DNA of 58,693 nt from an uncultured Parvularculaceae bacterium (GTDB taxonomy: Bacteria; Pseudomonadota; Alphaproteobacteria; Caulobacterales; Parvularculaceae). Below the pieces are notes generated by a model. The model was not told where the DNA came from, searched no databases, and saw only the letters and a program-made list of their open reading frames with translations. The translations under genes and the position numbers were made by a program. Positions 2,320 to 58,693 of the stretch are shown here, in pieces. The stretch is taken from positions 1 to 58,693 of the forward strand of contig CAJXLJ010000018.1 in assembly GCA_913055785.1 (NCBI GenBank), written 5' to 3'. Position 1 is the first letter of the stretch. Each line of letters opens with the position of its first letter.

Positions 2320-3354
2320 TCACCACTCCAGTATCACCTTGCCGGACTGGCCCGAGCGCATGATGTCGAAGCCTTTCTGGTAGTCCTCGATGGAAAAGCT
2401 GTGGGTGAGGATCGGCGTCAGGTCGAGCCCGGCCTGCAGCATCGCGCCCATCTTGTACCAGGTCTCGAACATGCGCCGCCCGTAAATGCCTTTGATCTCA
2501 AGCCCTTTGAAGATCACCTTGTCCCAGTCGATCCCGGCGCCGTTGGGCATGATCCCGAGCATGGCGACCTTGCCGCCGTGATTCATGGTTTCGAGCATGG
2601 CCTGGAAGGCGCTCGGGACACCCGACATTTCAAGGCCAACATCGAAGCCTTCGGTCATCTTGAGGTCGCTCATCACATCCTTGAGCGAGTCGCTGGCGAC
2701 ATTGACCGTGCGGGTCGCACCCATCTTTCTGGCGAGATCGAGGCGGTAATCGTTGACGTCAGTGACGACCACATGACGCGCGCCGACGAATTTCGCGATC
2801 GCCGCCGCCATGATGCCGATCGGCCCGGCGCCGGTGATCAGGACATCCTCGCCGACGAGATCGAAGGCGAGGGCGGTATGCGTCGCGTTACCGTAAGGAT
2901 CGAAGATCGCGCCGAGTTCGTCGGAGATATCGTCAGGCAGTTTGTAGACATTGAAGGCGGGGACGGCGACATATTCCGCGAACGAGCCCGGCCGGTTGAC
3001 GCCGACGCCGACCGTATTGCGGCAGAGATGGCGCTTGCCGGCGCGGCAGTTGCGGCAATAACCGCAGGTGACATGGCCTTCGGCGGAAACCCGGTCGCCG
3101 ATCTTGAAGGTCGCGTGTTCGGGATGAACTTCCGACCCGATCTCGACGACTTCGCCGGAGAACTCATGACCCACGGTCATCGGCACGGGGATCGTCTTTT
3201 GCGCCCAGTCGTCCCAGTTATAGATGTGAACGTCAGTGCCGCAGATCGCCGAGCGTTTGACCTTGATCAGGACGTCGTTCGGGCCGATTTCCGGCCGCGT
3301 CGTATCGAGCATCCAGATGCCTTCTTCAGGCTTTGCTTTCATCAGGGCTTTCAT
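2320..3354 (-). CDS. tdh: L-threonine 3-dehydrogenase
   Basis: Tdh oxidises L-threonine to 2-amino-3-ketobutyrate with NAD+; Kbl (3909-5111) then splits that product with CoA to glycine and acetyl-CoA. The 344 residues match the family length. Visible motifs are the catalytic zinc Cys in [14 protein letters not shown], the VGHEFSGE pair, the structural zinc cluster [15 protein letters not shown], and the Rossmann stretch [12 protein letters not shown]. Its start overlaps the stop of the upstream orphan gene as ATGA (3351-3354), which indicates translational coupling. In most bacteria tdh directly follows kbl; here a secreted protein gene lies between them. Confidence 0.96.
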
Positions 3355-56073: not shown

Positions 56074-58693
56074 ATGACCGCCATCACGCCTGAAATCGTG
56101 GCCGAACACGGCCTCAAGCCCGACGAATATGAGCGCATCAAGGCGCATATGGGCCGCGAACCGAACCTTCTCGAACTGGGGATTTTCTCGGTCATGTGGT
56201 CGGAGCACTGCTCCTACAAGTCATCCCGGAAACATCTCAAAAAGCTTCCCACCAGCGCGCCCTGGGTGATCCAGGGGCCGGGCGAAAACGCCGGGGTCAT
56301 TGATATCGGCGAGGGCTTGGCCGCCATCTTCAAGATGGAAAGCCACAATCACCCGAGTTTCATTGAACCATACCAGGGTGCGGCGACCGGGGTCGGCGGC
56401 ATCATGCGCGATGTCTTCACCATGGGCGCGCGGCCCGTCGCCAATATGAACGCCTTGCGCTTCGGCGACTGGTCTCATCCGAAGACCCGGCATCTCGTTT
56501 CCGGCGTCGTCGCGGGCATTGGCGGCTACGGCAACTGCATGGGCGTGCCGACGGTCGGCGGCGAGACCAATTTCCACGCCGGCTACAACGGCAATATTCT
56601 GGTCAACGCCATGACCGTCGGGATTGCCGAAAAACACCGCATTTTCTATTCGGCGGCGCGCGGCGAAGGAAACCCGGTTGTCTATGTGGGCTCGAAAACC
56701 GGGCGCGACGGCATTCACGGCGCAACCATGGCGTCAGCAGAATTCGACGACGCTTCGGAAGAAAAGCGTCCGACCGTTCAGGTGGGAGATCCGTTTACTG
56801 AAAAGCTGTTGCTTGAAGCGTGTCTCGAATTGATGGGCTCAGACGCGATCATCGCCATTCAGGACATGGGCGCTGCGGGCCTTACTTCGTCGTCCGTGGA
56901 AATGGCGGCGAAGGGCGGCGGCGGTTTCGAGCTGGATCTCGATCATGTCCCTCAGCGCGAAGAGGGTATGAGCGCCTATGAGATGATGCTGTCCGAAAGC
57001 CAGGAGCGCATGCTCATGGTGCTGCAGCCGGGCAAGGAAGACGAAGCCCGCGCGGTGTTCGAAAAATGGGGTGTCGACTTCGCGGTAATTGGCGAGACGA
57101 CCCGGTCCGGGCGGCTGGTCATCCGTCACAAGGGCGAGACCGTCGCTGACATGCCGGTGAAGCCGCTCGCCAACGATGCGCCGGAATATGACCGGCCGCG
57201 CGCTGAACTCTCCAAGCCGGCGGCGCTTGCGGATCCGACTGTGGTCGTCAAAGAGGCCGAAGCGATTCTAAGGGCGCCCGGCAAGTCCGAAGCCGAAATG
57301 CGCACGATTGCGGAAACGCTCATCGCCGACCGCCTCGCCGACGCCGATCTCGTTGACGCCGTTGGCCTGACCATCTCCGTTGGCGAAGCGCGCGTTTATG
57401 CGCGTTCTAAACCGGACGGCGTGAGGTTCGACGGTTTTGAGGAAGCCGCCCGCAATCTCGCCGCGTCGAATATTGTCGAGACGGCGGAAGTCGAACAGCG
57501 CGAGGAAAGCGTGTCGCTTGCCGATGCGCCGGGCGCCGATACCATGCTGACCGCCATGGCGCGCCTGATGGGGACGCCCGACTTGTGTTCGCGCCGCTGG
57601 ATCTGGGAACAATACGATCACACGGTCATGGGCGACACGATCATCGCGCCGGGCGGCGACGCGGCGCTTGTGCGCGTTCATGGAACGGGCCGGGCGCTGG
57701 CGATCTCGACTGACGTGACGCCGCGTTATGTGAAAGCCGATCCTCATGAGGGCGGCAAGCAGGCGGTAGCCGAAACTTTCCGGAATATCTGCGCGACGGG
57801 CGCCGCGCCGCTGGCGATCACCAACTGCCTTAATTTTGGCAATCCGGAACGCCCTGAAATCATGGCGCAGTTTGTCGGCGCCGTTGAAGGCATTGCGGAA
57901 GCTTGCGAGACGCTCGGCTATCCGGTCGTTTCCGGCAATGTCTCGCTTTACAATGAGACGAACGGCGAGGCGATCCCGCCGACCCCGGCGATTGGCGGGG
58001 TCGGCGTTCTAGAGGATGCGACCAAGGCTGTGCGGGTCGGCGGTGCGGAGGCGGGCGAAGAGCTGATCGCCATTGGAGTCACGCGGGGCTGGCTCGGTCA
58101 GTCGCTCTACATGCGCGAGCTTTTCGGAATTGAGGAAGGCGCGCCGCCGCCGGTCGATCTCGAGACCGAACGCAAGACTGGCGAGTTGATCCGCAAGCTG
58201 ATTGATGAAGGTCTGGTGACCGCCTGTCACGATGTTTCGGACGGCGGCCTTCTGGTCGCCGCCGCGGAAATGGCGCTCGCCGCCGGTCGCGGTCTCGACC
58301 TTCATACGCCTGTGAAGCAGCGCAAGACCGCTTTCTGGTTCGGCGAAGATCAGGGCCGTTATCTTGTCGCCGCAACACCCGCCGGGGCCGATACGCTGTT
58401 GTTGAAAGCCGCGATGGCGGGCGTTCAGGCATCGAAGATCGGCCGGTTCGGCGGGCCGGATATTCTGCTCGACGAGACCGACGGCGTTTCGCTGCTCGAT
58501 CTTTCCGATCTTTGGGAGGCGTCGCTTCCCGACTACATGAACGCGCAAAGCGCAGAGGAGACCGATCCCATGCCCATGGCCGCCGACGACATCAAGAAAC
58601 TGATCCTTGAGGCGATGCCGGACGCTGAAATCGAGATCGAGGATCTCGCGGGCGACGGCGATCACTACCGCGCCCGCATCGTTTCATCGGCGT
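56074..58693 (+). CDS. purL: PurL-BolA fused reading frame, cut by window edge
   Basis: PurL converts FGAR to FGAM in purine synthesis. The frame from ATG 56074 is open to the window end with no stop (873 codons). It has [75 protein letters not shown] and [13 protein letters not shown]. The PurL part ends near [11 protein letters not shown] (residue 826); nine residues later the frame enters a BolA sequence starting [20 protein letters not shown]. About 100 residues between KPAALADPT and [12 protein letters not shown] (residues ~386-485) are extra compared with usual PurL of ~740 residues. A weak promoter TTGCAC-N16-TTATGG ends at 56044. The fusion could be real or due to one lost stop codon. 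Confidence 0.9.
58556..58572 (+). promoter_or_regulatory. Internal ribosome site for BolA inside the purL frame
   Basis: AGGAG (58556-58560) sits nine bases before ATG 58570, which is in frame with purL and begins the BolA sequence; a second ATG follows at 58576. This is a good start context and suggests that free BolA can be made from the same message. Confidence 0.7.
58570..58693 (+). CDS. bolA: BolA-family protein, 5' part, in frame with purL
   Basis: The first 41 residues of a BolA-family protein: [20 protein letters not shown], then [20 protein letters not shown], where the window ends. BolA proteins bind monothiol glutaredoxins through [2Fe-2S] clusters and influence iron and cell-wall genes; in alphaproteobacteria bolA and grx commonly follow purL. 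Here it shares the purL frame without an intervening stop, so it can be a C-terminal domain of PurL, a separate product from the internal start, or both. Roughly half the protein lies outside the window. Confidence 0.82.

Follow-up and report, generated by a model that had tools for sequence, protein, structure and literature searches.

The window analysed here is the whole of contig C18 (58,693 bases) of an uncultured Parvularculaceae bacterium, whose genome (G000) is assembled in 85 contigs. At the end of the window lies an open reading frame that leads from a small-type PurL through a linker of 10 codons into the beginning of a BolA of the YrbA/IbaG type. The original prediction, made from the letters of this DNA, was that no stop interrupts the frame from 56074 to the window end; reading frame 56074-58692 codon by codon confirmed this, and an AGGAG nine bases before the BolA ATG at 58570 and a CAA at 58546-58548, one base from TAA, are likewise present as described. 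The features of the locus are the following:

56074..58692, + strand: PurL-BolA open reading frame, stop-free over 873 codons, running off the contig end, with a single match in its own genome
56074..58539, + strand: small-type PurL (FGAM synthase II), up to ...LPDYM, assigned from equivalog scores and domain matches
57238..57516, + strand: inserted stretch of about 95 residues separating the PurL halves, from alignment, with a predicted beta-alpha-beta-beta-alpha-beta domain
58540..58569, + strand: linker of 10 codons, between the last base of PurL (58539) and the BolA ATG (58570)
58556..58560, + strand: AGGAG, proposed internal Shine-Dalgarno sequence of BolA, with 9 nt between it and the ATG
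58570..58692, + strand: N-terminal 41 residues of the YrbA/IbaG-type BolA, from the proposed internal start ATG at 58570-58572

BolA is cut after these 41 residues because the window is an entire contig. The start of contig C24, from the same assembly, falls within the remainder of a BolA of the YrbA/IbaG type (C24:35-127). A script comparison of both contig ends found no exact overlap between C18 and C24, and about the first 34 bases of C24 (bases 1-34; locus L059) do not read as BolA and are probably an assembly-edge artefact. The contiguity of C18 and C24 is therefore unproved, a restriction that concerns this genome only. The entire fusion is present in single-contig assemblies of relatives (e.g. 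G004, G040, G041, G046 and G051). Among the 53 family loci considered below, two, the window and L022, have a BolA truncated by a contig end.

The PurL part and the BolA domain

The PurL part scores 1018.2 bits against NF002290 (cut-off 648) and 931.4 bits against TIGR01736 (cut-off 525.75), and is composed of AIRS and AIRS_C domains, in two halves, and of an FGAR-AT_linker domain. A separate PurS partner is encoded in the same genome (G000:C2:167446-167676; E = 1.1e-33). The insert between the two halves, which is missing from all three sister-family PurLs aligned, was placed on the window by eye from residues 389-481 of its counterpart in L067 (where the insert lies at 2996-3334), and the AF2 model of this L067 counterpart shows a beta-alpha-beta-beta-alpha-beta arrangement with a mean pLDDT of 81.8. 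No match to the insert was found in Pfam at E-values up to 10, nor any significant match of its profile among PDB sequences, and the best 50 Foldseek matches of its model are generic ferredoxin-like folds (best E 5.6e-4, TM <=0.59). A PurS-like nature of the insert was also considered and is unsupported, as hhalign against six PurS sequences gave a probability of 1.1 and no PurS was named among the best 50 Foldseek matches. The AF2 model of the whole fusion is poor (mean pLDDT 53.7) and is uninformative on the placement of BolA.

The cut BolA copy of the window itself gave no BolA match at E <= 0.001. The fusions of three complete relatives match the Pfam BolA family PF01722 with 50.1, 51.0 and 49.3 bits (cut-off 25.7), and the BolA domain of L067 matches YrbA of S. 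meliloti (5nfk; E 4.9e-26), with an identity of 63%, against 32% with the free BolA of the window genome. In S. meliloti YrbA, two histidines are described as binding metal and are assumed to be cluster ligands together with a glutaredoxin (PMC7538681). Both ligand histidines of the BolA_H group, i.e. the histidine of the [H/C] loop and the invariant C-terminal histidine, are present in all 51 complete tails; in the window, the first one lies inside the sequence and the second past its end.

Two BolA matches were found in 50 of the 62 family genomes, one in 10, none in G024 and three in G014. Genomes with two matches have as a rule one free BolA and one within the fusion, and in G014 two free matches (C97:3973-4206; C39:1955-2188) stand beside the fused one. 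The free BolAs score 85-109 bits over the whole profile and the fused ones about 49-59 bits, and by these scores the free BolAs of the family appear to be of another type than the fused ones, an assignment for which the direct sequence comparison covers the window's own genome only. All occurrences of the low-scoring type in the family are in long frames or lie at the edge of a contig, and no free copy of the fused type stood out in the 62 family genomes, as judged by score and frame. If the free BolAs are of the other type family-wide, a free BolA of the YrbA type must come from an internal start.

Distribution of the open joint

A search of relatives covered 100 genomes, including 60 of the same family (its own among them), of which 56 have a PurL match. 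The joint between the two parts is visible in 53 of these 60 genomes, and the frame is open across it in all 53 loci. Among the seven genomes without a joint, the sequences of G010, G024 and G043 end before it, and G031, G042, G050 and G058 are without a PurL match. G031 and G050 (98% complete) have a free BolA, but neither a PurL match nor a fused BolA was detected in them. A later search of 62 family genomes added G386 (locus L188), which is open, and G385, which is without a joint; visible family joints are thus open in 54 of 54 cases and the joint is not shown in eight of the 62 genomes (the Shine-Dalgarno counts given below, out of 53, leave out G386/L188). The recurrence of the fusion in relatives, proposed as a check in the original prediction, was thereby established.

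In a collection of named genomes, the joint-carrying group corresponds to the Parvularculaceae, with Marinicaulis and Parvularcula MAGs, Aquisalinus flavus, Parvularcula dongshanensis, P. oceani and P. maris among its named members. The frame is open in 21 of the 22 named loci of the Parvularculaceae type, which are largely from the same genomes as the 53 (L088 was not scored). Outside the family, one or more in-frame stops lie between the two genes in 57 of 58 named loci, 53 of them by script count and four (L119, L125, L137 and L141) by their printed segment, L120 not being scored. Among the matches listed from a class search (289 genomes), 53 from outside the family cover PurL and BolA together, and all of them contain one or more stops; an order search (249 genomes) returned matches in 46 family genomes, none with a stop, and five matches outside the family, with one stop each. 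Nine further loci from outside the family (L147-L155), mostly chosen for a BolA in a long open frame, were read and were rejected as fusions: in L147-L149, listed in the class search with open frames of 889, 912 and 859 aa, the PurL tail is in frame and is then followed by a stop, and in the remaining six the sequence upstream of BolA, read in the frame of BolA, is unlike PurL by eye. The claim that purL and bolA are adjacent yet separate genes in related bacteria is in agreement with these data, as this is often the case outside the family, with a stop between the genes.

The CAA at 58546-58548, one base from TAA, had led to the view that a sequencing error or a recent stop-loss, restricted to this one genome, was the main alternative to a genuine fusion. 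This view is refuted: the CAA lies in a fast-evolving linker, and the 53 open family loci include single-contig genomes and named isolates. Relatives with a stop at the joint, which the original prediction had set against the fusion, are absent from these 53 loci. The open PurL-BolA joint is real and not an error, and its distribution inside and outside the family goes far beyond chance.

Apparent selection on the linker and proposed internal start of BolA

In 43 full-length genes, the linkers are 6 to 25 codons long and amount to 413 codons in total. On the gene tree, at least 14 changes of linker length are required (Fitch), all of them multiples of three. If insertions and deletions ignored the frame, the chance of 14 in-frame changes would be about (1/3)^14, an estimate that is rough because the tree is that of the same gene and because the start of the linker was set by a motif. 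The linkers of these genes contain no stop in frame 0, and 9 and 14 stops in the other two frames. In 17 close pairs, linker substitutions at codon positions 1, 2 and 3 number 34, 38 and 67 (p = 2e-4); the family loci are of shared ancestry, so that these counts and p-values are not independent. When stop gain was simulated as neutral, between 2.6 and 22.7% of runs, according to the model, ended without any stop-bearing tip, and a lack of stops is on that account a weak case by itself. Among 39 sister-family loci that were read (L060-L066 and L156-L187), bolA lies within about 120 nt of purL in 10, and four of these 10 adjacent, unfused pairs are in frame, a share that is if anything high because some of L060-L066 were picked for an in-frame match through the stop. 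Taken together, the in-frame changes of linker length and the excess of third-position substitutions suggest that the fused polypeptide is apparently under selection.

The first methionine of BolA (ATG) is kept in all 53 family loci. The Shine-Dalgarno 5-mer precedes it in 52 of 53 loci, versus 48 of 1159 control in-frame ATGs inside PurL of the same genes (p = 5e-31, a value inflated by the relatedness of the loci). In the window, the duplex energy is -8.4 kcal/mol at the internal Shine-Dalgarno sequence versus -3.3 at the purL start; the family median is -8.0 before the BolA ATG, versus -1.3 at the control ATGs and versus -3.3 at purL starts (18 genes, in which the purL starts were chosen by position). 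L030 is without the motif, and L005, L011 and L041 pair more weakly. At positions -11 to -14, the 17 pairs differ 0 to 3 times, compared with up to 10 times at other positions, though a few linker positions beyond the Shine-Dalgarno sequence vary as little (2-3 differences in 17 pairs). In a sister family (f4; L061), GGAGACAGAC is found immediately before the same BolA ATG, so that the start site of BolA is probably ancestral.

Given the conserved Shine-Dalgarno sequence and ATG, the dual output that had been proposed for this locus, a fusion and a free BolA, is the best reading of the sequences. It is estimated, with a probability of roughly three in four, that one gene yields two products, namely a predicted PurL-BolA protein of ~96 kDa and a predicted free BolA of ~8.5 kDa. 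At the sequence level, this reading draws on an uninterrupted frame that is conserved family-wide, the maintenance of the frame, the coding signal of the linker, the conserved internal Shine-Dalgarno sequence with its ATG, and the intact histidines.

Two other readings of the same data have to be weighed against it. That the free BolA is the sole product of importance, with read-through into BolA a tolerated by-product of a lost stop, would suit an internal Shine-Dalgarno sequence stronger than that of purL itself and an absence of stops that alone is not significant in most simulations; it seems unlikely in view of the at least 14 linker length changes, every one of them frame-keeping, of the third-position excess in the linker and of the unfused neighbours, which do not hold the frame (four of 10 are in frame). 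Even less probable is that the fusion alone is made and that the Shine-Dalgarno sequence and ATG are left over from the former gene: the frame is open, the linker reads as coding and both histidines are retained in the fused domain, but the motif and the first methionine persist while the remaining linker turns over, and retention in 52 of 53 loci would not be expected of a left-over sequence among genes this divergent (tree length of 25 at 4-fold sites).

The two-product reading can be set out as follows. The stop that lay between purL and its neighbour bolA (YrbA/IbaG type) would have been lost in frame in an ancestor of the Parvularculaceae and the fusion retained, leaving a gene with two translation starts. 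Ribosomes from the purL start would pass through the variable linker and produce an FGAM synthase subunit of ~96 kDa with a C-terminal BolA domain, and those starting at the old bolA site, from a strong Shine-Dalgarno sequence within the linker codons, would produce the free BolA of ~8.5 kDa.

Possible function and comparison with known systems

A monothiol glutaredoxin query matched 57 of the 62 family genomes, strongly in 56 and weakly in G005; the grxD of the window genome is located at G000:C12:67534-67830. In 13 of the 56 genomes with a strong match, grxD is no more than about 10 kb away from the fusion; in the others it is located elsewhere or on a different contig. Among the five sister-family loci printed, grxD follows bolA in three (L060, L062 and L066). 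The location of grxD, mostly away from the fusion, suggests that an old purL-bolA-grxD order has loosened with purL and bolA still fused, and since grxD is outside the close neighbourhood in most members, a tight BolA-GrxD-PurL unit is not favoured. The original prediction proposed that a fused product would tie purine synthesis to the iron-sulfur/BolA-glutaredoxin axis; both histidines are retained, but grxD is close to the fusion in a minority of genomes. We infer that tethering BolA to PurL draws GrxD to the PurL complex: BolA could dock GrxD, a monothiol glutaredoxin, there together with a [2Fe-2S] cluster, and this placement could be what selection keeps. A more speculative and rather improbable extension is that FGAM synthase would be responsive to iron or Fe-S, the [2Fe-2S] GrxD docking on the tethered BolA and tuning purine synthesis, and the free BolA competing for GrxD and setting the sensitivity, i.e. 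a one-gene sensor with a built-in competitor.

PurF, with an Fe-S cluster served by the tethered BolA, was considered as well and is unsupported as such a client. In the Bacillus enzyme, four cysteines are [4Fe-4S] ligands, and the PurF of the window genome (L191; G000:C2:41596-42942) has about two of the four cysteines of this pattern and seems to be without the other two or so.

To our knowledge, the partners and the purpose of BolA in bacteria are still unclear. That the family has kept the frame through many changes of linker length speaks for some link, physical or regulatory, between BolA and the PurL complex. The literature covered, which takes in a minority of subscription journals, yielded no description of a fusion of PurL with BolA.

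The closest known arrangement is the purL-bolA(-grxD) neighbourhood of Alphaproteobacteria, which shares both genes with the fusion, in the same order, and in which the free bolA start of unfused relatives is the counterpart of the internal Shine-Dalgarno sequence and ATG; a stop separates purL and bolA there, whereas the Parvularculaceae frame is continuous. YrbA of S. meliloti (5nfk), of the BolA_H group, is a stand-alone protein whose Parvularculaceae counterpart is fused to PurL, and its His32 and His67 are conserved in the fused domains. A BolA domain C-terminal to another protein is described for plant SufE1-BolA, and SufE1 and BolAs interact with CGFS-type glutaredoxins (PMC10051749); the partner is an Fe-S assembly protein in the plant case, whereas here it is a purine enzyme, and an internal bacterial start is kept. 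In-frame internal starts, with one frame, two starts and a shared stop, are described for N-terminal proteoform pairs (PMC11005335) and for two-polypeptide phage endolysins (PMC9430671). Unlike in these genes, the short product would here be an entire ancestral protein from a different pathway, nested through gene fusion. C-terminal BolA domains and internal starts are thus already known, and what seems to be new, as judged from the literature covered, is the joining of BolA to PurL and the apparent family-wide retention of both outputs. The locus is a natural case of a fusion that retains the start of the downstream gene, in which one frame may yield two products throughout a family.
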